From: Armatimonas rosea
Lineage (GTDB): Bacteria; Armatimonadota; Armatimonadia; Armatimonadales; Armatimonadaceae
Length of the DNA: 64,000 nucleotides
Assembly (NCBI RefSeq): GCF_014202505.1
Contig: NZ_JACHGW010000001.1
Location: 1-64,000, forward strand
Direction: 5' to 3'
The notes beneath the pieces are model-generated. The model worked only from the letters and a program-made list of their open reading frames with translations. It did no database searches and was not told the origin of the DNA. Made by a program: the position numbers and the translations under genes. Below are positions 8,072 through 52,728 of this stretch, one piece after another (position 1 is the stretch's first letter; each line of letters opens with the position of its first letter).

Positions 8072-9136
8072 ATGAAGTTCTTTCCGATTCTTGTCGCCCT
8101 CACTTTGCCGGGCGTGGCTCTCGCACAGGCACAGACGCCCCCCGAGCAGCCTCCCGCAAAGGCGGCACCCGTCGAGGAGAAAGTCGCCCCCAAGACCAAG
8201 CGCGTCCTGGTGGTCTCGTTCCAGCAGCTGGATCGGAAGATCAAGAACAACCTCCCCATCGGCCAGGATGTCGCCGACATGATGACCCTCTCGCTGGTCA
8301 ATATCGGGACGCGGGTTGTCGAGCGGGTCGAGCTGGCGGCGCTGGAGCGAGAGCGCGGCCTACAAAACGGCGGGGGGAGCCAAGCGGCCGTGCAGGAGCT
8401 GGGCAAGCTCAAGGGAGCCAGTGTCGCCGTGATGGGCAAGATCACCGAGTTTGGGGTCTTTGAGAAGAACGCCTCGGTGGCAAAGAACGCGGTCAACCAG
8501 GCAACCAACCAGATCGGTGGGCTCCTTGGCAAGAAGAAGAAAAGCAGCGACGATAAAAAAGACTATGAGCTCCGGGTGAGCATGGATGTCCGGCTGGTCA
8601 ATGTCGAGACAGGCGATATCCTGGCGGTTGCGTCCACGACTGTCACGGAGAGCCAGGCCGACGATAGCATGGAGAGCCTGTTTGGCAAGTCGTTTGCGCA
8701 GAAGAACTCCCTGGCGGGCGCGGCGGTGGCGGCGACAGGCCTAGGGAGCACGACTACCAAGGCCGATGACTGGAACGAGTCGGCGGCGGGACAGGCGGCA
8801 CGCAAGGCGGTCAGCCAGCTTGCCCGCTCGATCTTTGGCAAGATTCCCCTGGCCCCGGAGGGAGAGATCGACGATGCCATCACGATCAAGCTCAGTGTCG
8901 AGGGGCTCGCTAGCTTCAAAGAGGCCGACACCCTGGCAAAGTCCATCGCCAAGCTCAAGGATATCTCCGAGGCCGAGATCGCCGACTTCACCCCCGAGCG
9001 CACGGAGATCGTCATCAAGGGCGCTCCCAAGGCCATCAAAGGGCTCGCGGCCAACCTACAAGACGACAGCGCGGTCATGAGCCTAGGGCTCAAGATCGCC
9101 CGCGTGACCAAAGAGGTCATCACTCTCAAAAAATAG
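8072..9136 (+). CDS. Exported CsgG-like lipoprotein-family protein
   Basis: The 354-residue protein has a signal peptide (cleavage after ALAQA, about residue 20). A CsgG/curli-assembly-like region follows (about 45-270), with RVLVVSFQQLD, a block around TRVVERVELAALERE and VAVMGKITEFG. There is no lipobox Cys, unlike true CsgG. The C-terminal part (280-354) has a GEIDDAITIKLSVEGL repeat-like fold of unknown type. A good ribosome site (AAGGAG) precedes the start. CsgG relatives form outer-membrane secretion pores or act as periplasmic adaptors; which applies here cannot be decided. Confidence 0.7.
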   Translation: MKFFPILVALTLPGVALAQAQTPPEQPPAKAAPVEEKVAPKTKRVLVVSFQQLDRKIKNNLPIGQDVADMMTLSLVNIGTRVVERVELAALERERGLQNGGGSQAAVQELGKLKGASVAVMGKITEFGVFEKNASVAKNAVNQATNQIGGLLGKKKKSSDDKKDYELRVSMDVRLVNVETGDILAVASTTVTESQADDSMESLFGKSFAQKNSLAGAAVAATGLGSTTTKADDWNESAAGQAARKAVSQLARSIFGKIPLAPEGEIDDAITIKLSVEGLASFKEADTLAKSIAKLKDISEAEIADFTPERTEIVIKGAPKAIKGLAANLQDDSAVMSLGLKIARVTKEVITLKK

Positions 9137-9178
9137 TCCCCTCTCAAGAAAATCTGTGACAAGGAGCAGTATCTTACG

Positions 9179-10264
9179 ATGAAACGTCCTCTCCCCCAAG
9201 ACTCAAAAGTCAACTTAATCCAGAAGTCAAACCCCCTCTCCCCGGTCGTGTTGCGTCCCGAGCGCTACCTGGAGATCCTACGCTCAGACTCCCTCGTTCA
9301 GCTGCAAGAGCGTGGCATTAGCAATCGCCTGCAGAGCCTGAAGCAGGGCTTTGACCAGAACCGCCCTGCTTTCGACAAGGCCCGCCAGGCCGTCAAGTTC
9401 GATGAAAATGCCCTCCGCGCCGATACCGAGCGCCTCAAGGCCATCAGCGACCCCGCAGCGCTCCAGGCAGCGACCGCCCAGTTTCTCCAGCGCTGGGGCT
9501 CAACCATTGAGTCACTCCGCAGTGCAACGGGGCTGACAGGCAGTGAGGCAGCCGGGGGAGCAGCGTTTGCGGGGATGCAGCTCAAGAATGGCGTCCTCCA
9601 GGGAGACTCCAGCTCCGTCGAGGGATCGTCGTCTCAGGTCACCTACAGGCCCCTCTCAGCGCCCGGACGAATCTCAGGGATCGGCAAGATCCTAGGCGGG
9701 AAGACAACACCAGCGGGCCCGCAGCAGCTATCCTTTAAAGCCCCGTTCACGGGAGCGGGCGTGAGTGGTCCTTCGGGGAGTAGCAAGGCCACCGCAGCCG
9801 ATGGAAAATTCAACTCATCGCTCGCCTTGTACTGGGTGGGATCCGATCAAGCCCGTAGCTTCATTACCCAGAGCCTTGCGGTTCCTGCAGGTGTGAACCG
9901 TGTGAGTGTCACAGCAAACCTCACGAGCTTGAACTGGTGGCAGAGCGTGGTGATTGTCTTGGGCTATGGCAACACCGAGACCATTGTCAATCTCCGCGTG
10001 ATGGATGGCTCTCGCGTGGTTGCCAGTGACCGTCTTAGCTTGAAGCGCATTAGCATCCCGGTCGGTGGAGCCTCCTCAGAGTCAGGCCAAGGGCCACTCT
10101 CTCTACGCTGCGAGTTTAACCGGGACCGTCCTGGTGATATCTCCACCTACACGCTTGTCGCGGAGCTAGAGATCTGGGCGGGCCTAGGCAGTGTCTTGGG
10201 AACGACGGCTACCTGCTATGAGTATGCCACGTTGGGTTCGTTCGACGCCGTGCTCTACTCCTAG
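9179..10264 (+). CDS. Unknown protein with coiled N-terminal region
   Basis: I do not recognise this 361-residue protein. Residues 35-120 are rich in Gln, Arg, Ala and Glu and probably form helices or a coiled coil (LQERGISNRLQSLKQGFDQN). Residues 150-210 are Gly/Ser-rich and flexible. The rest looks beta-rich, with VTANLTSLNWWQSVVIVLGYG and a final cysteine near the end. There is no signal peptide or membrane segment. It has a ribosome site (AAGGAG) and lies 42 bases after the CsgG-like gene, so the two may be one transcript. Confidence 0.6.
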   Translation: MKRPLPQDSKVNLIQKSNPLSPVVLRPERYLEILRSDSLVQLQERGISNRLQSLKQGFDQNRPAFDKARQAVKFDENALRADTERLKAISDPAALQAATAQFLQRWGSTIESLRSATGLTGSEAAGGAAFAGMQLKNGVLQGDSSSVEGSSSQVTYRPLSAPGRISGIGKILGGKTTPAGPQQLSFKAPFTGAGVSGPSGSSKATAADGKFNSSLALYWVGSDQARSFITQSLAVPAGVNRVSVTANLTSLNWWQSVVIVLGYGNTETIVNLRVMDGSRVVASDRLSLKRISIPVGGASSESGQGPLSLRCEFNRDRPGDISTYTLVAELEIWAGLGSVLGTTATCYEYATLGSFDAVLYS

Positions 10265-10267
10265 GCG

Positions 10268-12988
10268 CTAGATCGGAGGCAGGAGCGGCGCGGTGCCGTC
10301 GGGGGGGAGTGCCAGTGGCTGCTGTGCGAGGGCGAGTGCCTGCTCAAAGCTTAGCTGGCGTCCCTCCGCCAGCGCCCGCTCCAGCCCTTCGGGGTCGGGG
10401 GCACGCAGGCAGGCGAGGTCCCGCTCGTAGACCCGCTGCTCCAGTGGGTTGGGGAGAGCCCCCAGCTGCTCGCGTGTCTCCAGCAGGTAGCCATAGAGCC
10501 TTCCCCCACGCTCGGTCTCTCCGATATCGGCGAGAAACGAGCCCACCGCCCCAAGAAGATAGACCCCAAGGATCGGGCGGGTGAAGTTCCGCTGACGGAA
10601 GTGGAGCATCTGCCCCAAGGCATGCTGCGCCTGGCCCCAGAGCGCAAGGTGGCGACTCGCCTGGAGCAGATCGTGCCAGGCATTGAAGGCATCACTGGGG
10701 ACACCCAGCCGGGGCGCTAAGACAACGAGGCGCTCCACAAGAGTCCTTAAAGCACCAGGCTCTGGGTGAGGCCGTGCTCGCTGTGCCCGCATCTGCATGC
10801 TGAGGGTCAGCACCTCGATGTAGGTACTCTCCAGCAGAGCCGCGGTCTCCTGGAGCCGCTGGAGCAAGGGTGCCGCCGCCACAAAGTTTTGCTGAACCAG
10901 GTGCACCCCGACAAGGCTATAGAGCCCCTCCATCACCTTGTGCAGATCGCCCTCTGCCTCAAACAGAGCCGTGGCCTGGCTCACACGCTCCAGCTTGATC
11001 GCATGGTCGTTGAGGCTATCGAGGAAGCTCTCCACCTGAAGGAGTGCCTGGGCATGGTGCCAGCGCCCCCAAGTCGTCCCACGGGTCTCCTCCAGGATCG
11101 GCTGTATGGATGCCCAGTAGCTCTCGTAGGTAAGCGCCTTGCTATCGGTGCTCAGAGCAAGGGTCGCCTCGATCGCGATCGTGCGGCTCTGCGCCTGCGC
11201 CGCCTCGGTGAGGCACGCCCGCCCACGCACGCTGTCTCCCGCGGCACTGTAGAGGGTTCCCAGCACCAGGAGCGCCGCAAAGCGCACCTCCGACGGCTCC
11301 AAGACGCCGGCTAGTGCTTGCTCGGTCCGCTGGATGCCCTCGGTGAGCAGGCCGCGACGCTGCCAGTACTGGCCTAGAGCGACGGCGAGGCGTAGGCTTT
11401 CCTGGCCGGTGAGGTAGGGCCAGGTCGCCAGGAGGTTTGCCTGCTCCTTGTCGAGCTTCTTGAGCCAGAGGTGCTGCTCGGCGCGGCGCAGCTCCGGGGC
11501 GGCTTTCTCGGCAAGCACGAGGTACCAGTGGGCGTGGCGCTGACGAAGCTCGGGTGCCTCGCCACTGCGCTCCAGCCGCTCGACACACCACTGGCGAATC
11601 GGCTCCAGAAAGCGGTAGCGGGTCGTGCCATCGGGCTGGATCTGGGCCTGGACCAGGGATTTCTCCACCAGCGCCGCCAGAGACTCGCGGCGCGCCTGAC
11701 AGATCTCCAGCACCGCCGCACGCTCGGCCCCTCCCGCAAAGACCGCAAGACGATAGAGCAGCGCGCGTTGCTCGGGCACCAGGAGTGCCTCACTCCAGGC
11801 CAGAGTCGCCTCCAGAGAGCGCTGGCGTGTCGGCAGCGAGGCACTTGCTGTCTCCCCAAGCCCAAACCCCTCGCTCAGGTCCTGGGCGAGTTCCCGCAAT
11901 GACAGGCTCCGGCACTGCGAGGCGGCTAGCTCAAGCGCCAAAGGTAGCCCTTCAAGCTGCGCACAGATCTGCCGTAGCGCCTCGGGATCGTCGGGGAGGT
12001 CCGGCCGCACGGCGCGCGCCGATGTCCGCAGGAAGCGGGCCGCGACCGTAGGATCGAGCGGCTGGAGCGCCAGGGTACGCTCGCCCTCCACCCGAAGCGG
12101 CTCCCGGCTTGTCACCACGAGCTTGAGGCGGGGCGCTGCACGCAAAAGCCGCAGCACCAGCGCACTGGTTGCAGGCAAGACATGCTCCGCGTTGTCTAAG
12201 ATTAGCAGTAGATTTCGGCTCGCCATCAGCCGCAAGAGGCTCTCTTCGCGCGGCTCTTCCCCATGCAGAGAGAGCCCCAGCGCCTCGATAATGCTCTGAA
12301 GAAGTCGCTCCTCACCGGAGCCAGAGGACAGTGCTGCCAGCTCTACAAAGACAACATCGTGCTTCATCCCTGCTGCCAGCGCCACCGCAAGCCGTGTCTT
12401 CCCCACCCCGCCTGGGCCCAAGAGGGTGATTAGCCGCACGCCCGGCTCGGACAGGAGAAGCGAGAGCCGCTCCAGCTCACTCTCTCGTCCCTGCAGCTCC
12501 GAGAGATAGAGGGGGAGCCCCGCACGCGGGGAGGGAGCGGGAATCCCTGCGGCGGGAACCTGCGCAAGGAGGGCGTTGAGCCGCTCTCGCTCGGTGAGGA
12601 TCGCCTCCTCAAAGAAGCCAGGGAGGAGCTCGCCGCGCCAGAGGCTCCGTGCCCGAGTGCCCTCGCCCCGCAGCAAGGCCGCCTCAAAGGTCGCCACATC
12701 GGTCGTGGTTCCCTCGGCGAGCCAGAGCGCGTGGCTATCGGCGTGGACAAGCTCTTGCTCAGGGAGGGCCTGGCGCAGGTACAGCAAGGTCTGGCGCAGG
12801 TTCCGGCGCCCTGTCTCGGTATCGGCATCGGGCCAGAGCTGCACGGCGAGCTCCTCACGGGCGTGCCGCTGCTGGGGTCGGAGCGCCAGGAGCGCCAGCA
12901 GGGCTGCAGCCTTGCGCCGTGGGAATGTCTCAAAGCGCTTCCCATGCACCTCAACACACAGACCGCCCAGGAGCAAGATACGAGTCAT
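10268..12988 (-). CDS. SARP/BTAD-type transcription factor with NB-ARC ATPase and TPRs
   Basis: The 906-residue regulator has an OmpR-like DNA-binding and BTAD region (1-145), then an NB-ARC STAND ATPase with P-loop GPGGVGKT (191-198) and Walker B LLLILDN (260-266). A long helical TPR-like C-terminus follows, the layout of AfsR-type regulators. STAND ATPases switch by ligand-driven nucleotide exchange. The ATG at 12988 lies 8 nt after a perfect TATAAT. Tandem 11-bp repeats sit where the -35 should be, so autoregulation is likely. The divergent neighbour at 13086 and the unknown gene at 9179 are possible targets. The signal is unknown. Confidence 0.87.
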   Translation of the reverse strand: MTRILLLGGLCVEVHGKRFETFPRRKAAALLALLALRPQQRHAREELAVQLWPDADTETGRRNLRQTLLYLRQALPEQELVHADSHALWLAEGTTTDVATFEAALLRGEGTRARSLWRGELLPGFFEEAILTERERLNALLAQVPAAGIPAPSPRAGLPLYLSELQGRESELERLSLLLSEPGVRLITLLGPGGVGKTRLAVALAAGMKHDVVFVELAALSSGSGEERLLQSIIEALGLSLHGEEPREESLLRLMASRNLLLILDNAEHVLPATSALVLRLLRAAPRLKLVVTSREPLRVEGERTLALQPLDPTVAARFLRTSARAVRPDLPDDPEALRQICAQLEGLPLALELAASQCRSLSLRELAQDLSEGFGLGETASASLPTRQRSLEATLAWSEALLVPEQRALLYRLAVFAGGAERAAVLEICQARRESLAALVEKSLVQAQIQPDGTTRYRFLEPIRQWCVERLERSGEAPELRQRHAHWYLVLAEKAAPELRRAEQHLWLKKLDKEQANLLATWPYLTGQESLRLAVALGQYWQRRGLLTEGIQRTEQALAGVLEPSEVRFAALLVLGTLYSAAGDSVRGRACLTEAAQAQSRTIAIEATLALSTDSKALTYESYWASIQPILEETRGTTWGRWHHAQALLQVESFLDSLNDHAIKLERVSQATALFEAEGDLHKVMEGLYSLVGVHLVQQNFVAAAPLLQRLQETAALLESTYIEVLTLSMQMRAQRARPHPEPGALRTLVERLVVLAPRLGVPSDAFNAWHDLLQASRHLALWGQAQHALGQMLHFRQRNFTRPILGVYLLGAVGSFLADIGETERGGRLYGYLLETREQLGALPNPLEQRVYERDLACLRAPDPEGLERALAEGRQLSFEQALALAQQPLALPPDGTAPLLPPI

Positions 12989-12996
12989 TCCTTACA

Positions 12997-13041
12997 ATTA
13001 TAACAAAAATGACGCTCCGATGATACTGCGATGACGCTACG
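12997..13041 (-). promoter_or_regulatory. SARP-type promoter: three 11-bp repeats plus TATAAT
   Basis: Reading the minus strand, three tandem 11-mers (13041-13031, 13030-13020, 13019-13009; consensus CGNAGCGTCAT) end 6 bp before the perfect -10 TATAAT (13002-12997). There is no recognisable -35. SARP-family activators are known to bind direct repeats with 11-bp period that overlap the -35 region. The array also lies upstream of the divergent gene at 13086. Confidence 0.65.
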
Positions 13042-13085
13042 TCTACGCGAGGGTGAGATACTACCCCATCAGAAAGGCTAAGACC

Positions 13086-13886
13086 ATGCGTTTCACTCCG
13101 ATTACCAACTCGATCTTTCCTATCACGTTCTCTCTCCCACGCGGCTGGAAGGTCCTGAAAGCACAGGACAACAACACGGTTCTGGTTCCCAGCAGCTCCG
13201 GTGAGGTCGAGGCGCTCTTGATCGCCCACCTGGGCCTCTACACAAAAACAGAGACGCTCGTCAAGGGGCTGGCGGCCTCGCTCAAGGACCTCAATTGCAA
13301 AAATATCGAGGTGCGCGAGGAGGGTGAGCGGACTCTTGCGGGCAAGAAGTTCTATGTCGCCAAGGGGCAGGCGCTCAATGGGCAAGACAAGCCCGTGGTC
13401 TTTGCGCTCTACAGCCTGCTCAGTGACAAGCAGCTGGGGGCGGGCCTTGTGGCGCTCTCCCAGCCCGCGCAGGGCAACGAGACGCTCCGCGCCGCCGAGG
13501 AGCTGATGACCAGCCTGCAGTTTGGCAGTTTTGCGCCCTCACGCACCGCGGCCACGCCGCTGATGGGGGTCTGGGAGAGTAGCCGTAGCGAGGGCTCGCG
13601 GACCTCGGGGATCGGTGGGGTGAGTGTCTCATCGTTCACCCGCTATGTCTTCCAGGGCTCGGGCCGGTTCGCCTCACGCTCCCAGAGCAGTGTGAGCGCC
13701 AGCGGGGAGTTTGGGGACTTTGGCTCCAGCCTCGCAAAAGATAGCTCCACCGAGGACGAAGGCGAGTTCTTTGTGGTGGGCAAGAAGCTGGTTCTCTCCA
13801 GCGCCAAGAACGGCACGACCGTCACCGATTTCACGCTCCAAGGTGGAGTTCTCAAGCTCAACGGAGCCACTCTACGAAGAAAGTAA
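13086..13886 (+). CDS. Unknown protein, two-domain, Ser/Gly-rich C-terminus
   Basis: This 266-residue product is of unknown family. Residues 1-150 resemble the small alpha/beta fold seen in PsbP/DUF1795-like proteins (PITFSLPRGWKVLKAQDNNTVLV and later VFALYSLLSDKQLG), but this is only a visual likeness. Residues 155-266 have a Ser/Phe/Gly-rich beta region that reads like a lipocalin or META-type measured-effect domain (LMGVWESSRSEGSRTSG). No signal peptide is seen. The start at 13086 has AAAGG upstream. It is divergent from the SARP regulator and shares its repeat-bearing promoter region, so it may be a target. Confidence 0.6.
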   Translation: MRFTPITNSIFPITFSLPRGWKVLKAQDNNTVLVPSSSGEVEALLIAHLGLYTKTETLVKGLAASLKDLNCKNIEVREEGERTLAGKKFYVAKGQALNGQDKPVVFALYSLLSDKQLGAGLVALSQPAQGNETLRAAEELMTSLQFGSFAPSRTAATPLMGVWESSRSEGSRTSGIGGVSVSSFTRYVFQGSGRFASRSQSSVSASGEFGDFGSSLAKDSSTEDEGEFFVVGKKLVLSSAKNGTTVTDFTLQGGVLKLNGATLRRK

Positions 13887-19588: not shown

Positions 19589-21343
19589 CTAGGCAGCCCA
19601 GCGGAGTGCGGTTCTCAGCGCCTCGGTGGCGGACGCATGGGTTGTGGTGCTTAAAAAGGCCGCGACATCGTGCTCGGCCAGGGGGCGCTGGAAGTGATAG
19701 CCTTGGCCCAACGCGCAACGCATGGAGCGCGCAAGCTCGCGCTGGGCGGCGGTCTCGATCCCTTCTGCCACGATCAAGAGATCCAGTGCCTGCCCCGCAG
19801 AGACCATTGCCCGGAGGAGTGCTTGGTTGCGCTGGGCACGCACGGGGAGCGCATCGGTGGCGCTCCAGAGAAACGAGCGGTCGATCTTCAGGGCATGGAT
19901 AGGGAGCTCACTCAGGGCCGAGAGCGACGAGTACCCGATCCCAAAGTCGTCGAGCACCAGTGCCACGCCTGCATCGTAGAGCTCCTGTAGCTGCGGCAGG
20001 ACGGACTCACGCCCCAGCGCAAAGATACTCTCCGTTACCTCCAGCACGAGCTTATCGGGGGGGAGGCCGGTCTGCTCCAGAGTGGCGAGTACCTCGCGGG
20101 TAAAGTGAGGAGCCTGAAGCTGTGCCACGGAGATATTCACCCCCATGCTGAGGTGCGGAGCAAGCTGCCGCCACCGAACCGCACAGTGGCACGCCTGGCG
20201 CAGGAGCTGGAACCCCAGCGGGACAATCAGACCTGTCTCTTCCGCAATCGGTATGAACTGATCGGGAGGGATATTGCCATGGGTAGGGTGCTGCCAGCGT
20301 GCCAGTGCCTCCAGCCCCACCACAGCTCGTGACTCCAGCAGAAAGAGAGGCTGGTAGGCCAGGGTGAGCTGCTCCCGCTCGATAGCAACCCGCAGGGCGT
20401 TCTCCAGCTCAAAACGAAGGCGAGTCTCCTGCTCCATCTGCGCATCAAAGACACAAGCACGGCCACGGCCACGGGTCTTGGCGGCGTACATGGCGATATC
20501 GGCGTTGCGCAGGAGCCCGGTTGCTCCCTGGTCGCTGCCCAAGGAGATACCAATGCTTGCGGAGAGATAGATCCGCTCCGTCAGCTCAAGCGGCAGAGAC
20601 AGAGGCAGCCTGATCTGCTCCTGAACCCGCTCCGCCAGTGCCCAGGCTTCGTCGTGGGTTGCGTCCGGGCGCAGAAGCACCGTGAACTCATCGCCGCCCA
20701 GCCGGATGACATCGCCGCGTGCGCCCACACTCTGCCGGAGCCGCTTTGCCACCTCCACCAGTACTTGATCCCCCATGGGGTGCCCAAGGTTATCGTTGAT
20801 GGCCTTGAAGTTATCGAGATCGAGAAAGAGCAAGAGGCGCTGTGCGCTCCGTGGGTCTTTCTCCAGAATCTTGGAGAGATAGGCACGATTGGGGAGCTGG
20901 GTGAGGGGGTCGTGGTGCGCCTCGTGGATCAGCTGGCGCTCCGTACTCTTGCGCTCCGTGATATCGACCCAGACCCCCACCGCACGGCCGTAGCCCGGAG
21001 TCTGCTGCTCCAGCTCGATCGACTCCTGCACCCAGAGCACTGAGCCATCGGTCTGGATGAGCTCGAACTCGCGGGTCACCGAGGAGAGATTCGCCGCCAA
21101 GGCTTCGTCGATTATCCGGCACCCCTCACGCTGCGCCTCGGCGGAGCGTGCCCAGAAAAGGTCCTCCGCATAGCTGTGGCCTTCCTGCCGGGGAATGCTC
21201 AGCCAGGTATGGGCCGCCTCTTCATTCAAGACGGTTGTCTTCCAGAGCCCGGGGATGAAGTCGGCGTACCAGAGCAGATAGCGCCCCCGACGGAGTGCAT
21301 AGTCTAGGGAAGAGCCTAGGGAGGGAGGGACGGCACTACTCAT
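19589..21343 (-). CDS. PAS-GGDEF-EAL c-di-GMP protein
   Basis: The 584-residue soluble protein has a PAS domain with PAC end (about 20-135; VGVWVDITERK), then GGDEF (about 140-305) with LGGDEF, then EAL (about 315-565). The EAL domain has GLEALARW, the Asn and Glu metal residues (MGVNIS, LEVTES), DDFGIGYSSL, KIDRSF and EGIET. Both catalytic sites appear intact, so it could make or degrade c-di-GMP depending on the PAS input. It lies near the response regulator cyclase at 16060, but on the other strand. It diverges from the heparinase gene. Confidence 0.92.
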   Translation of the reverse strand: MSSAVPPSLGSSLDYALRRGRYLLWYADFIPGLWKTTVLNEEAAHTWLSIPRQEGHSYAEDLFWARSAEAQREGCRIIDEALAANLSSVTREFELIQTDGSVLWVQESIELEQQTPGYGRAVGVWVDITERKSTERQLIHEAHHDPLTQLPNRAYLSKILEKDPRSAQRLLLFLDLDNFKAINDNLGHPMGDQVLVEVAKRLRQSVGARGDVIRLGGDEFTVLLRPDATHDEAWALAERVQEQIRLPLSLPLELTERIYLSASIGISLGSDQGATGLLRNADIAMYAAKTRGRGRACVFDAQMEQETRLRFELENALRVAIEREQLTLAYQPLFLLESRAVVGLEALARWQHPTHGNIPPDQFIPIAEETGLIVPLGFQLLRQACHCAVRWRQLAPHLSMGVNISVAQLQAPHFTREVLATLEQTGLPPDKLVLEVTESIFALGRESVLPQLQELYDAGVALVLDDFGIGYSSLSALSELPIHALKIDRSFLWSATDALPVRAQRNQALLRAMVSAGQALDLLIVAEGIETAAQRELARSMRCALGQGYHFQRPLAEHDVAAFLSTTTHASATEALRTALRWAA

Positions 21344-21430
21344 AAAACGTGACTATCTATGGTTAAGATATCGGCAGGCACGCTGATTTTAATGAGGCTA
21401 CCGCTTTGCAAGCAGTTGTATACTGAGGAC

Positions 21431-23425
21431 ATGATGCCTCTGATAGCCATTACGTCGCTCCAAACACCCCCACTGGTCACCGATGCCAAGCTCGCGGCAC
21501 TTCCCGCACACCCGCGCTTGCTGGCGACCAAGGCCGAGCTGGAAGCGGCCAAGCGCAAGCCCGAGAACAAGGCGTTTTTAGACGGCCTACTCGCCCGCGC
21601 CGAGACCTTGAGTAAGAAGCCCGTCGTGCTACCCGAGCGCGGGGGGCAGTGGCCGCACTGGTACGCCTGCAAGACCCACGGCGCACGCCTCAAGACCGAG
21701 TCGCCCACGCGCCATGTCTGTCCGGTCGATGGGCAGGTCTACACGGGCTGGCCCTACGACGATGTCCCGCTCCTGGCGGAGCACAACGACTGGGCCAGCG
21801 CACTGCGCGACCTCGGGCTGGCCTACCAGCTCAGCGGCGAGCGACGCTACGCACAGAAGGCGCGGGAGATCCTGCTCGCCTACGCCGTCAAGTACCCCGG
21901 CTACGCCTACCACGACAAAGACGGTAAGACCGGCACGGGTGGCGGTAAAGTGGGGCCGCAGACCCTCGACGAAGCAGTCTGGCTGATCCCGATGGCGCAG
22001 GGGGCCGACCTAGTCTGGGAGACCCTCTCCGAGAGCGAGCGCGCCACCCTCAAGACCGACCTCTTCTTCCCCGCCGCCGAGGTCATTCGCAAGCACAAGA
22101 TGGGGGTCCACAATATCCAGTGCTGGAAGAATAGCGCGGTCGGGCTGGTGGCGCTGCTCTACGGCGACAAGGCGCTCCTCGCCGAAGCCATCGACGATCC
22201 CGAGCGTGGGCTGCAGCGCCAGCTACGCGAGGGAATCACCGACGATGGCCCGTGGTACGAGGGGGCGTGGAGCTACCACTTCTACACGATGAGCGCCCTC
22301 GCGCCGCTGATGGAGGCGGGCTACCACGCCGGGCTCCCGCTCTACTCGGGGACGCTCGGGGAGCGCTACAAGAAGCTCTATCTCGCCGCGATCCGCATGG
22401 CCCTGCCCGGCGGTCAGCTCCCCGCCTTCAACGACTCCAACGCCGCCACCGCGATGAGCAACCCGCTCTACGAGACCGCGTTCGTACGCTTCCAAGACCC
22501 CCAGCTCGCCCTGCCCCTGACCACCAGCCCGCGCAAGACCCTCCCCGCGTTCTTGGCCGGCGCTCCCCCACTTCCCGCAACAGCCAGCCAGACACTCCCC
22601 TCCGAGGTCTTTGCGGCGGTGGGCTATGCCTACCTCCGTGCACCCGGCGCGACCCTGATCCTTAAGTACGGCCCCCACGGCGGCGGCCACGGCCACGCCG
22701 ACAAGCTCAACACGGTCTTCTTTGCGGGCGGGAAGACGCTCCTCGATGACCCGGGGACCAGTGTCTATGGCATTCCTGCCCACCTCGGCTGGTACAAGAC
22801 CACCCTGGCGCACAACACGTTTGTACAGGCCGAGACCAACCAAGCTCCCGCCACAGGAAGGCTCCTGGACTTCAAGACCGGCACGGGCTGGGCCGCCGCC
22901 CTCGCCGATGCCGGGGCCGCCTACGAGGGCACCACTCTCCAGCGCGCCGCGTTTCTGCTGGGCAGCGACACCGCAGTCTTCGTGGACCACGCCGAGCAAA
23001 AAGCCCCCGGCCTGCTCGACCTCGCGATCCACCCCAGCTTCGAGCCCAAGAGCTGGCTGATGCAACCGGGAGACGTGCAGAGCTTGCCGGACAAACCAGG
23101 CTACCGCTACCTGCAAGCCGCCAAGCAAACCAGCAGCTTTTCATCCTACACCGACTCGTCGGGGTTTGCCCTCTCGCTCGTCCCGCTGACTACCCCCACC
23201 CGCTACGTGATCGCGACCGGGATGGGCAAGAGCAGCGAGGACCGTGTCCCGATCCTCCTGGCACGCACCGTGGAAAAGAGCGCACGCTGGGTCTGGGCAA
23301 TCGCGCCCCGTGGGACCACTCTCACGGCCCGCACCCGCGGCGAGGAGGTCCTTGTCGAGGTAAACACGCCGGGCAAGAGAAGCTGGCAGCTCCGCGTGAC
23401 AGCCACGACGCTCGACGTAAAATAA
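21431..23425 (+). CDS. Heparinase II/III family polysaccharide lyase
   Basis: The 664-residue protein has an alpha/alpha toroid part (about 20-370) with HNIQCWKNSAVGL and WYEGAWSYHFYTM, and a heparinase II/III-like beta part (about 390-660) with YGPHGGGHGHADKLN. Conserved Tyr and His residues fit the lyase active site. It likely cleaves a uronic-acid polysaccharide by beta-elimination. The start at 21431 is chosen because TATACT (21419-21424) lies 6 nt upstream. With that start the N-terminus (MMPLIAITSLQTPP) is only weakly hydrophobic, so export is uncertain. Confidence 0.85.
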   Translation: MMPLIAITSLQTPPLVTDAKLAALPAHPRLLATKAELEAAKRKPENKAFLDGLLARAETLSKKPVVLPERGGQWPHWYACKTHGARLKTESPTRHVCPVDGQVYTGWPYDDVPLLAEHNDWASALRDLGLAYQLSGERRYAQKAREILLAYAVKYPGYAYHDKDGKTGTGGGKVGPQTLDEAVWLIPMAQGADLVWETLSESERATLKTDLFFPAAEVIRKHKMGVHNIQCWKNSAVGLVALLYGDKALLAEAIDDPERGLQRQLREGITDDGPWYEGAWSYHFYTMSALAPLMEAGYHAGLPLYSGTLGERYKKLYLAAIRMALPGGQLPAFNDSNAATAMSNPLYETAFVRFQDPQLALPLTTSPRKTLPAFLAGAPPLPATASQTLPSEVFAAVGYAYLRAPGATLILKYGPHGGGHGHADKLNTVFFAGGKTLLDDPGTSVYGIPAHLGWYKTTLAHNTFVQAETNQAPATGRLLDFKTGTGWAAALADAGAAYEGTTLQRAAFLLGSDTAVFVDHAEQKAPGLLDLAIHPSFEPKSWLMQPGDVQSLPDKPGYRYLQAAKQTSSFSSYTDSSGFALSLVPLTTPTRYVIATGMGKSSEDRVPILLARTVEKSARWVWAIAPRGTTLTARTRGEEVLVEVNTPGKRSWQLRVTATTLDVK

Positions 23426-44091: not shown

Positions 44092-47070
44092 TTACAGGCT
44101 TCTTACAAACTCCCTTACAATTTTTCGTAGCTGCTCATCGGTGAGGTCAGGTTGCCCTTGTGTCAGCTCCTCCGCCCAAGCTAGGATCGTCTTCTTCGTC
44201 TCCTCAAGCGAGGTCACTTTTTTCGGGGTGATCTGCAGCTCATGTTGGGCTATAAAACGGGACGAGACAATACCAAACTCAAAACCTAAAACCTGCCTCA
44301 TGCCATATATAGATTCCAAAATATCTCGTAGCTCAGGCGTGGGATTAGCTCTATACAGGATCAAGCAATAACAGATCAGAGCCCCAAGCATCTCAAAGAA
44401 ATTTTTGGAGTGCAAACAGTTTTTAATTACATTCTTATAAAGAATCAAAGCATGCCGTTCATCTCCATAGGTCATTAAACAACCGGCAAGGGCTATGATA
44501 GAGCCATTAACATATGCCCCATTACGTATCCTGCGCGCCAATAAATAGTGCTTACAAGTAAATTTTATCGACTGTTCAATATTATCAATACGAATATAAC
44601 CCATAGCAGCATTATAATAACCTGTTATGAGTCTTTCATAATCACTATTTTTTCGCAGCAAATAAAAGGATCGATTTGAATAAGTTATAAAATTATCAAC
44701 ACCATAGGTACTCACCTCAGCGGCGCTCATATTTGCATATATTATAGCTTCTAGTATCTCATCTCCCCGTTCGCTCATTAGACTTAAAGCCTTTTTTCCC
44801 CAGAGACAAACTTGTTCGTACTCACCACCCGTTAGTAGCTGAGTCATCAGACTGATTTTCAGGCGAACGACTTGCTCGACAGTCACCACCTGGTGTAGTG
44901 ACTCTTTTTGGAGTAGCTCTACAAGGTAGCGTTGCCCCTCTTTATGGTAGACATTTATCCACCAGAAGCGCCCCAGGCTACTCCCCAGCCTATAGGCGAC
45001 CTCCAGACGCTCAGGCTCCTCCCCTTCGAGGCTCCAGCCCATCGCAGCACGCAGGTTCGGTAGGACACTCTCTAAGCGCTCCATCCAAAGCGACTCCTGG
45101 TCTGTACGCCAGTGCCCGCGCGCCTGCTCCGCAAGACCGGCAAAGTACTCCGCGTGTCGGCGACGTCCCTCTTCACGCTCCTGAGGCCCCCACTGCTGGT
45201 CCGCAAACAGCCGCAACGACTCCAGCATGACAAAGCACACCCGATGCTCGCTCAGCTCTGTCGTGAGAAAGGAGCAGTCACACAGCTCTGCAAGGTAGTC
45301 CAGCGCAAGAGGGATTCCGAGTACCTGCTCCACGTCGAGATGGCCAAAGCTCCCCCGGAAGACCGTCAGCCTCGCTAAGAAAACTTTTAGCTCAGGACGC
45401 AGAAGATCAAAACTCCACGAGATACTGGCATAGAGAGAGCGATGTCGCTCCGGCCCGCCCTTTCGAGTTGTCGCCAGGAGCTGAAACCGTGCCTCGACCC
45501 CCTCAAGGATCTGCAGGGGGGACATTACCTGCACGCGTGCCGCTGCCAGCAGCAGCGCAAGCGGGATCCCCTCCAAGACATGGACAATACGAGCAACAAT
45601 CGCCAGGTTACGAGCGTGTAGATGAAAGTCCGGCACGCTCTCACGCGCACGATCCACAAAGAGAGCCACACTGGGCCAGCGCGCCTCAAACTGTGCAGGG
45701 TCTTCTTCCTCCAGAGCAAGAGACTCCACAGGCGGGGTTGGCAAGGGGGCGAGGGGAAAGAGCCGCTCGCCTGGGATGGAGAGCCGGTTCTGCGAGGTTG
45801 CCAGGCACTGGAGAGAGGGAGCACGCTGCAAGAGAGCCCGCAGGCACTCAAGGGCATCGGACTCAAGAAGCTGCTCCATATTATCCAGAACAAGCAGAAC
45901 CCTACCGCTCTGACTGAGAAGCGAGGAGACGAGCTCCAGTAGCTCACCCCCCTGCCCCGAGGGGAGGCGGACCTGCAGGCTACTGGCAATCGCCTGAAGA
46001 AACCCTTGCCCGTGGCGCGCCTCCTGCAAGGAGACAAAGTAGGCACTCCCCCCCTCTTGCTGAACCTGTCGCGCCAGCTCCAGCGCGAGGCGGGTCTTCC
46101 CAATTCCTCCAGGCCCAATCAAGGTGAGAAGGCGTACCTCCTCGCGCTCCAGTAGGCCCTTCAGCTGCGCCAGCTCCTCCTGACGCCCCACAAAATGGGT
46201 GATATCCAGCGGTAGGGCGGACACGCGGCTCAGCGGTGGCGTCTCTCTTAGGGGAGAGGGAGCAGGAGCCGCAAAGACAACTGGAGCTGCCGCAGGCCGA
46301 GGCTTCTTTCGAGTACTCGCCGTGGGATAGAGCGCCAAAGCCGCCTGCGCACGCCGCTCCACCGAAGCAGGCAAGCTCCCCAAGCCATCGTCTTTCCAGC
46401 GCCGCACCGCGTCGTGGTAGGCCTGAGCCGCCTCTTCCATCCGCTTCTCTTCCGTCAGTAGCTGGATCAAGTGCTCCAGAGCGCCTGTATCTTCTGGAAA
46501 ATAGAGCAGCTCCTGGCGACGCCAGTAGATGGCCTCGTCGATATCTCCCTCTTCTTCGGAGAAGCTTCCCAGTCGCCGCACGGCAGCCGTGAAGCGATCC
46601 CTTAGGCGTGCCTGCTCGCTCAGCACCCAGTCATCATAGAAACCGGGGAGAAATGTCCCTCGAAAGAGAGCTAGTGTCTGGCGTAGTGTGTTGATCGCCT
46701 CGGGGGTATTGTCACTGGAAACCCCATCGAGCGCCTGCTCAAACTCCAGCACATCGCTGCTCACAGCCTCGGCTCTGACGCCTAAAGTACGTGGATCGAC
46801 AAGGAGAACCTGTCCCACGAGCTCCGTCTCTAGCTGGCTACGTAGTGATGAGACCGCAACCGAGAGGCTCGCGCGTGCCTTATCGGGATGGGGAGCATCG
46901 TGCCAGAACATCTCGGCCAGCACTTCACGAGAGAGACGCTTCCCTCGGTGGAAGACTAAGTACGCAAATAGGGATGCCGTCTGACGCGTCCGAAAACGAC
47001 TAAAGCTTCCCCCTACTCCCGCTACCTGAAATCCCCCCAGCATCTCGACACGTAACATCGCCTGAGCCAT
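44092..47070 (-). CDS. Second SARP/BTAD-type regulator with NB-ARC ATPase
   Basis: The 992-residue protein has an OmpR-like DNA-binding region (1-95), a full BTAD domain (about 105-245), a proline-rich linker and an NB-ARC STAND ATPase with P-loop GPGGIGKT (319-326) and Walker B VLLVLDN (391-397). The helical repeat C-terminus follows. The last 250 or so codons (44092 to about 44850) are much more AT-rich than the rest. It is divergent from the oxidoreductase/cysteine-rich gene set, whose promoter has 11-bp-spaced repeats, so it probably activates that set. A GGAG ribosome site precedes the ATG. Confidence 0.87.
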   Translation of the reverse strand: MAQAMLRVEMLGGFQVAGVGGSFSRFRTRQTASLFAYLVFHRGKRLSREVLAEMFWHDAPHPDKARASLSVAVSSLRSQLETELVGQVLLVDPRTLGVRAEAVSSDVLEFEQALDGVSSDNTPEAINTLRQTLALFRGTFLPGFYDDWVLSEQARLRDRFTAAVRRLGSFSEEEGDIDEAIYWRRQELLYFPEDTGALEHLIQLLTEEKRMEEAAQAYHDAVRRWKDDGLGSLPASVERRAQAALALYPTASTRKKPRPAAAPVVFAAPAPSPLRETPPLSRVSALPLDITHFVGRQEELAQLKGLLEREEVRLLTLIGPGGIGKTRLALELARQVQQEGGSAYFVSLQEARHGQGFLQAIASSLQVRLPSGQGGELLELVSSLLSQSGRVLLVLDNMEQLLESDALECLRALLQRAPSLQCLATSQNRLSIPGERLFPLAPLPTPPVESLALEEEDPAQFEARWPSVALFVDRARESVPDFHLHARNLAIVARIVHVLEGIPLALLLAAARVQVMSPLQILEGVEARFQLLATTRKGGPERHRSLYASISWSFDLLRPELKVFLARLTVFRGSFGHLDVEQVLGIPLALDYLAELCDCSFLTTELSEHRVCFVMLESLRLFADQQWGPQEREEGRRRHAEYFAGLAEQARGHWRTDQESLWMERLESVLPNLRAAMGWSLEGEEPERLEVAYRLGSSLGRFWWINVYHKEGQRYLVELLQKESLHQVVTVEQVVRLKISLMTQLLTGGEYEQVCLWGKKALSLMSERGDEILEAIIYANMSAAEVSTYGVDNFITYSNRSFYLLRKNSDYERLITGYYNAAMGYIRIDNIEQSIKFTCKHYLLARRIRNGAYVNGSIIALAGCLMTYGDERHALILYKNVIKNCLHSKNFFEMLGALICYCLILYRANPTPELRDILESIYGMRQVLGFEFGIVSSRFIAQHELQITPKKVTSLEETKKTILAWAEELTQGQPDLTDEQLRKIVREFVRSL

Positions 47071-51116: not shown

Positions 51117-51219
51117 AGGAGAGCCTGCGACGCTCGCCAGCCCCCCCGCTCCAACCGGGGGGGGGAGACTGGAAACACGCTGGAAACAGTGAGCGGCTAA
51201 ATTAGCACCAGAGTGGTCA

Positions 51220-52728
51220 ATGTGGCCCAAAATTCGCTATTGCGTCGGAAAGTGGGCTGTGAACGTGTCGCTTTTGGAAACCTATGAGCCGGGTATCTTT
51301 TACGATGAGCTGATGCTCCCCTCGGGCAAGCCGCGTGCGCACTCCCGCGCGCTCGCGGAGCACCTGGATGCGATGAGCCCCACCGAGTTTGCCCAGCGTG
51401 CGCGCCTCGCCGAGACCCTGATGATGCAGCAGGGAATCACGTTCAATGTCTATGGTGCCGAGGGTGGGGTCGAGCGGGCGTTTCCCTTTGATCTCGTCCC
51501 CCGTGTCCTCACCGCCGGCGAGTGGGAGACCATTGAGAAGGGCCTCACCCAGCGGCTCACAGCGCTCAATCTCTTTCTCTGGGATATCTACCACGAGCAG
51601 AAGATCCTCAAAGATGGGGTCGTTCCGCGCGCCTTGGTGATGGGAGCGGTTCACTTTCGCCGCGAGTTCATGGGGGCCGATCCCCCCGGCGGGGTCTATG
51701 TCCATATCTGCGGCACCGACCTGATCCGCGACACCGACGGCAAGTTCTATGTCCTGGAAGACAACCTCCGCACGCCATCGGGTGTCTCGTACATGCTGGA
51801 GAACCGTGCCATCCTGGCGCGCGTGATGCCCCAGCTCTTCCAGGACATGGGCGTCCGCCCCATCGCCGACTACACGTCGCACCTGCTCCACAACCTGCGC
51901 GCCCTCGCTCCCGCACACCGCAGCGACGATCCCACGGTCGTGCTCCTGACACCGGGGGTCTACAACAGCGCCTACTACGAGCACTCGTATCTGGCGCAGC
52001 AGCTGGGGATTCCTCTGGTCGAGGGCCGGGACTTGATTGTCGAGGAGAACATTGTCTCCATGAAGACCACCCACGGCCTCAAGCGGGTCGATGTGATCTA
52101 CCGGCGCGTGGACGATGACTTTCTGGACCCGCTGATCTTCCGCCCGGACTCGCAGCTGGGGGTGGCGGGCCTGGTCAATGCCTACCGCGCGGGCAATGTG
52201 GCGCTCGCCAACTCGATTGGGACGGGGGTCGCCGACGATAAAGTGATCTATGCGTATGTGCCAGAGATTATCAAGTACTATCTAGACCAGGAGGTAATCC
52301 TGCCCAATGTCGAGACCTATCCCGCCTTTGAGGACAAGCACCGTGAGTACATCCTGGACAACTTAGACAAGCTCGTGGTCAAGGCGGCCAACGAGTCCGG
52401 GGGCTATGGGATGCTCATGGGGCCGCAGGCCAGCCTCTCAGAGCGCGAGGTCTTTGCTGAGCTGGTGAAAGCCAACCCGCGCAACTATATCGCCCAGCCG
52501 CTGATTCATCTCTCCCGCGCCCCCGCCTTCGTGGAGCCAGGGCACTTTGAGGGCCGCCATATCGACCTGCGCCCCTTCGCCCTCTGTGACCGGGACCTGC
52601 GCGTGACCATTGTCCCCGGCGGACTCACCCGTGTCGCGCTGAGAAAAGGCTCGTATGTCGTGAACTCGTCGCAGGGCGGCGGAAGTAAAGATACCTGGGT
52701 GCTTGGAAAGGAGAGCCGCAATGCTTAG
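51220..52728 (+). CDS. Circularly permuted ATP-grasp protein
   Basis: The 502-residue protein matches the circularly permuted ATP-grasp (DUF404/407) family: [71 protein letters not shown], and the nucleotide-binding [13 protein letters not shown] with [13 protein letters not shown]. Such enzymes are predicted to join amine and carboxyl groups. An alternative start is GTG 51259 ([12 protein letters not shown]), better matched to the family's beginning and with GGAAAG upstream. It overlaps the alpha-E gene by 8 bases, as usual for this cassette. Confidence 0.9.

Follow-up and report, generated by a model that had tools for sequence, protein, structure and literature searches.

Three 11-bp direct repeats stand head to tail on the minus strand at 13009-13041, between the gene for a 906-residue regulator and a divergently oriented neighbour. 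We interpret this array, with about even confidence, as an autogenous operator of the SARP type, most likely autoactivating and co-controlling the divergent transcription unit. Judged from the sequence, the regulator very probably controls its own gene, and it is plausible that the divergent unit at 13086 is under its control too. As to the sign of the regulation, activation is slightly ahead of autorepression. In what follows, the window means the whole 64-kb stretch of DNA that was analysed; the features discussed are collected in Table 1.

Table 1. Repeat units, predicted promoter elements and genes around the array.
Feature	Coordinates	Strand	Remarks
Regulator gene, 906 aa	10268..12988	minus	predicted SARP-type winged helix ~1-95, truncated BTA ~96-145, STAND/NB-ARC ATPase ~164-358
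Extended -10 TGTTATAAT of regulator gene	12997..13005	minus	predicted from sequence and conservation in the orthologue
Repeat unit 1 (proximal)	13009..13019	minus	CGGAGCGTCAT; ~-29 to -19 of regulator promoter, end 6 bp from TATAAT
Repeat unit 2	13020..13030	minus	CGCAGTATCAT; ~-40 to -30, in place of -35
Repeat unit 3 (distal)	13031..13041	minus	CGTAGCGTCAT; ~-51 to -41 of regulator promoter
Possible degenerate fourth unit	13042..13052	minus	CCTCGCGTAGA; in-register part is the GCGT core only, four bases, weak
Extended -10 TGAGATACT of divergent transcription unit	13054..13062	plus	predicted; identical in the orthologous intergenic region
Divergent gene, 266 aa, function not assigned	13086..13886	plus	orthologue in genus mate
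Convergent neighbour, 361 aa, function not assigned	9179..10264	plus	kept beside the orthologous regulator (synteny)

The minus-strand order is CGTAGCGTCAT CGCAGTATCAT CGGAGCGTCAT TTTTGT TATAAT TGTAAGGA ATG. A sequence-only reading had taken the units for three exact 11-mers placed head to tail. Their coordinates and the spacing of exactly 11 bp stand, but the units are not exact copies. Unit 1 agrees with unit 3 at 10 of 11 positions, and unit 2 agrees with each of the others at 8 of 11, with a core of GTATCAT against GCGTCAT in units 1 and 3. With 26 of 33 pairwise matches at period 11, the array is the sole such triple in the window, where the chance level is 0.03 per shuffled window. Its score was never equalled when the 97-bp intergenic region was dinucleotide-shuffled 20,000 times. 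A genome scan, which the same reading had proposed, found the three-unit pattern (up to three mismatches) once in the window (0.00 expected) and at no other place in the 6.3-Mb genome. A wider regulon was also sought over the whole genome with three- and two-unit patterns, and only the known site and one match in apparent coding sequence were returned. The two-unit matches were equal in number to those of a reversed-pattern control, and the extra coding match is near chance. That no second two-unit operator appears beyond this match is as expected for a dedicated self-operator. A scan of viral contigs with a 16-base pattern gave 16 matches; a collection of that size should contain such a pattern by chance. 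The window also holds an 11-bp direct repeat, CTGGAAACACG CTGGAAACAG, at 51168-51190, which lies in front of a circularly permuted ATP-grasp gene (51220-52728), and a 12-bp direct repeat, CTAGGGAAGAGC CTAGGGAGG, at 21302-21322, which lies in front of a heparinase/alginate-lyase-like gene (21359-23425).

SARP targets are direct repeats at 11 or 22 bp, with the last heptamer about 8 bp from the -10 element. Here there are three units spaced at 11 bp, and the conserved core GCGTCAT ends 6 bp before the -10 (6-8 bp by the core definition chosen; the phase of an 11-bp tandem is arbitrary), slightly below the 8-bp rule. The -10 is a perfect TATAAT at 13002-12997, 6 bp from the end of the array as the earlier reading had it; what that reading missed is the preceding TGT, which makes it an extended -10, TGnTATAAT. 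The regulator ATG is at 12988 and transcription is predicted to start at about 12990, and the message would thus be essentially leaderless. A recognisable -35 was found at neither the regulator promoter nor the divergent one. With TATAAT set at -12 to -7, the array spans -51 to -19 of the regulator's own promoter. The SARP-like position attributed to the repeats is borne out by comparison with the AfsR box of Streptomyces coelicolor, which occupies -40 to -19 as 11-bp repeats at -40 to -30 and -29 to -19 (PMC10936776). The direct repeats of both systems lie in the -35/spacer region, and the unit windows coincide exactly, down to the last. The afs unit is CGTT(T/C)ATCG (PMC10972967), and a part of it, TCATCG, is contained in the array repeats. 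The array differs from the AfsR box in having three units instead of two and a core that lies nearer to the -10 by a few bp.

The only orthologue of the regulator that was found, with 63% identity over all 906 residues, is in a genus mate, an Armatimonadetes metagenome-assembled genome from Lac Pavin. Upstream of it is the same arrangement, GCGTAGACGCAGCGTCATCGGTGTATCATCTAAGCGTTATTTTTGCTATAAT, in which CGCAGCGTCAT, CGGTGTATCAT and CTAAGCGTTAT are the counterparts of units 3, 2 and 1. Each of the three cores, the deviant GTATCAT among them, is retained, with a single change in the last, and the bases between the cores vary. The GCGT core of the possible fourth unit is kept as well (CCCTGCGTAGA), and the regulator -10, TGCTATAAT, lies at the same 8-nt distance from the ATG. 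The conserved intergenic block runs from the regulator TGnTATAAT to TGAGATACTA, the extended -10 on the divergent strand, and the sequence outside both ends has diverged. The array pattern has one match per genome in both genus members, each upstream of the orthologous regulator gene, and none in 29 further Armatimonadota genomes. On the other side of the regulator, a CsgG-like gene followed by the gene of the 361-aa protein (8072-10264) is convergent to it in both genomes. The earlier reading would have been given up if the repeats were not conserved upstream of orthologues; they are kept before the only one found. The candidate operator thus stands before its own gene and is conserved with it, as expected of autoregulation, in two genomes that form one orthologue pair. 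It is very improbable that the array is a chance repeat without function. There are only three units, they are imperfect, and the second is off consensus, but the shuffles never reached the array score, and it is this deviant second unit that is also conserved while the orthologues' intergenic flanks have diverged.

The N-terminus of the regulator matches Trans_reg_C slightly below the gathering score, and 51 of 61 homologues match it. A profile built on 61 N-termini of this genome and its relatives, compared to solved structures, reached AfsR (E 6e-14) and EmbR (2e-12). AfsR was reached by the family profile only, since a Phmmer search of the whole regulator protein against PDB gave no match. 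The predicted structure of residues 1-170 has a mean pLDDT of 91.9, and in two programs the best matches to the predicted fold are AfsR and EmbR (Z 16-17 over ~150 residues), with the best other OmpR-type winged helix at Z 10.8. The profile match and the predicted fold support a SARP-type DNA-binding domain in the regulator, that is, the N-terminal OmpR-type winged helix of the SARP family. It is followed by NB-ARC (1.3e-7) and AAA_22 (2.5e-9) matches, as in the large SARP/STAND ATPases. The sequence-only reading had called the protein a SARP regulator, which holds for the DNA-binding domain but not for the complete BTA domain of that family. The regulator has no BTAD match, its P-loop domain starts at about residue 164, and the model aligns to AfsR residues 24-194 only, with helices to about residue 142. 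A full BTAD is found in other paralogues, e.g., 44092-47070. In AfsR, the BTA domain covers residues 120-270, and residues 211-263 are among those that touch sigma region 4 and alpha-CTD (PMC10936776). The match stops at AfsR residue 194, so the regulator is without most of the activation surface known from AfsR. In residues 360-906, Pfam gave no TPR match (E up to 5), and the C-terminal half has no Pfam match of any kind. PADLOC returned no defence link.

From these sequences, we infer that the array is the target of the encoded regulator. The N-terminal winged helix would bind to three 11-bp units, or perhaps four, next to one another along the same face of the DNA helix, the bound array would stand in for the missing -35, and the STAND ATPase part may gate the assembly. 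At the leaderless extended -10 promoter of the regulator itself, the array would then most likely recruit RNA polymerase, giving autoactivation. Characterised SARPs activate transcription, and they do so by bridging sigma region 4 and RNA polymerase. Activation is favoured here because the -35 is missing and the array is in its place, as in SARP activation. A credible, if somewhat less likely, alternative is autorepression with divergent activation, in which protein over -51 to -19 would block the regulator's own promoter and activate the divergent operon from about -60 to -28. It is credible because the extended -10, kept in both genomes with no -35, is perfect and may not need an activator, and because the BTA is cut before most of the AfsR polymerase contacts. 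The divergent -10, GATACT, is extended, conserved and weaker than the regulator -10, and the nearest unit lies over its -35 position; this would follow the classical logic of divergent regulators. However, characterised SARPs activate from about the position of the array, and the paralogue L038 has three GTCTTA-type units at 11 bp before a TATAAT that is not extended and has no -35, for which activation is the simpler reading. Of the earlier claim that the regulator activates itself, the self-control is well supported by the conservation and by the private repeats of the paralogues (below), whereas the activation says more than the sequence bears out, in view of the extended -10 and the short BTA.

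Seen from the divergent extended -10 promoter, the array is located at about -60 to -28, and under the preferred reading it most likely has a share in controlling the unit from 13086. The Shine-Dalgarno on the divergent side is also conserved in the genus mate. There, the contig with the regulator ends 218 bp upstream of the regulator gene, and its final 141 bases recur unchanged where the contig with the 13086 orthologue begins; the order is regulator, operator, P0002, 13086 orthologue, M15 peptidase. P0002, a protein of ~515 aa encoded between the operator and the 13086 orthologue, is absent here and from the other 20 genomes searched and has no family match. The 13086 locus looks as if a deletion had fused the 13086 gene to the promoter, and the 13086 product is without the signal-peptide-like N-terminal stretch present in the genus-mate orthologue. 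What makes control of the divergent gene plausible is that its extended -10 is kept and that the 13086 orthologue is in the relative's divergent operon. Although the first gene differs, the divergent promoter is retained at the same place with respect to the array, which supports, without proving, shared control. The same conserved -10 and Shine-Dalgarno, and the same orthologue in the divergent operon, could be taken to mean that the repeats serve the divergent gene only and that their nearness to the regulator promoter is incidental. We consider this quite improbable: the two genomes do not share their first divergent gene, while the array and the regulator -10 are kept, and 12 of 30 paralogues have a -10 just before the start, several of them with repeats directly upstream of it.

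The genome encodes about 30 paralogues with this N-terminus (loci L033-L062). Most of the SARP-like paralogues are on STAND ATPases, and some are without most of the activation domain. Differently spelled upstream repeats of their own, at 11- or 12-bp spacing, are present in about one-third of the 30, and about two-thirds are without clear repeats. Self-matching of the 30 upstream regions peaks at 11 and 12 bp. Measured against genome background tiles, with the word length that gave the strongest signal among several tried in each case (the others give weaker values), there are 4 of 30 at lag 11, where 0.21 are expected (P 5.6e-5), and 4 of 30 at lag 12, where 0.34 are expected (P 3.5e-4). The tiles were used as the control because coding DNA is 3-periodic, which inflates lag 12; an earlier control of window genes was too small and had several lag-11/12 matches of its own. 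No 11- or 12-bp repeats are seen in seven cyclase-type ATPase paralogues that have no winged helix. In several paralogues, e.g., L015, L017, L018, L022, L024 and L026, a class III nucleotide cyclase-like N-terminus (FLFTDIEGST) is on the ATPase part, replacing the winged helix. In distant Armatimonadota, the repeat statistics are less clear, so the feature is claimed for the genus and a few family members only. The repeats of L045 are CGTGAAC, kept in the genus-mate counterpart L091, and those of L061 are CGTTACC, kept in L105; L050 and L062 have GTGGAC, and L056 has GCGTATAG. Private repeats at the regulators' own promoters are what autogenous binding predicts, and they therefore support it. 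It is unlikely that the array is bound instead by another OmpR/PhoB-type regulator. PhoP recognises the AfsR repeats in Streptomyces (PMC10972967), and 11-bp direct repeats are usual for OmpR-type winged helices. A regulator with several targets should, however, have several sites, while the operator is unique in each genome and always faces the same regulator gene, and the repeats of the paralogues differ in sequence with no common box.

Leaderless promoters are common among the paralogues: the TATAAT-like -10 of the 12 mentioned above is 6-11 nt before the start, versus 1 paralogue with it at 13-20 nt. A second layout, seen in L050, L061, L062, L105, L094 and L056, mainly full-BTAD proteins, has a pair of units at 12-bp spacing, joined in several cases by a third unit 23 bp on. 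In most of these, a conserved AGGA(T/A)TT-like motif, which may be an odd -10 or some other element, follows the second unit by 7-8 bp. Recognition-helix positions 66 and 70 correspond to AfsR T88 and R92, which make base contacts, and paralogues alike at these positions tend to a common spelling (R/D with GTGG[AT]C, R/E with CGTTAC). A code relating recognition helix to operator was tried on ten paralogues; its permutation P of 0.04 was gone after regressing overall identity (partial r 0.06). The covariation of helix and operator is therefore suggestive, and in ten proteins, it is inseparable from overall relatedness.

The relationships of the system to known regulators are partial. AfsR shares the OmpR-type winged helix, the start of the BTA and the NOD/STAND ATPase. 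The regulator differs in its truncated BTA, in an apparent target that is its own gene and a neighbour instead of afsS, and in its phylum, Armatimonadota. PimR and other SARP-LAL regulators likewise have a SARP N-terminus on a large ATP-binding protein and a three-unit operator. The PimR operator, located between divergent genes, is made up of three heptamers separated by 4-nt spacers, and two units are needed for binding (PMC5930380). PimR is not autoregulated, and its operator does not overlap a -35 (PMC3367932), whereas here the array stands next to the -10 of the regulator itself. EmbR of Mycobacterium tuberculosis is alike in its winged helix and BTA fold (Z 16.8), but it has an FHA domain and a full BTA where the regulator has a STAND ATPase and a truncated BTA. 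LysR-like divergent regulators are autoregulated through a shared operator, an inverted repeat bound by the LysR dimer. The logic is similar in that one operator is flanked by two divergent promoters, neither of which has a -35. The difference is that the repeats here are tandem and direct, and the presumed binder is an OmpR-type domain on a STAND ATPase.

To our knowledge, SARPs have been described almost entirely from actinomycete antibiotic clusters. The array and its regulator are a variation on the SARP theme, outside the actinomycetes and with an incomplete BTA, in a genome of the Armatimonadota in which SARP-like DNA-binding domains have expanded to ~30 copies. We suggest, tentatively, that the ~30 SARP-like STAND paralogues could be self-addressed switches, each with a private helical-repeat operator, read by helix positions 66 and 70, at its own, often leaderless promoter. 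They would fall into an 11-bp class, mainly with a truncated BTA, and a 12-bp class with a third unit 23 bp on, mainly with a full BTAD. If this is true, one genome holds a natural series for deriving the SARP recognition code. If confirmed, the system would provide a natural protein-operator series for studying SARP specificity and the 11- or 12-bp spacing, together with a test case of whether a SARP without a full BTA is an activator or a repressor.
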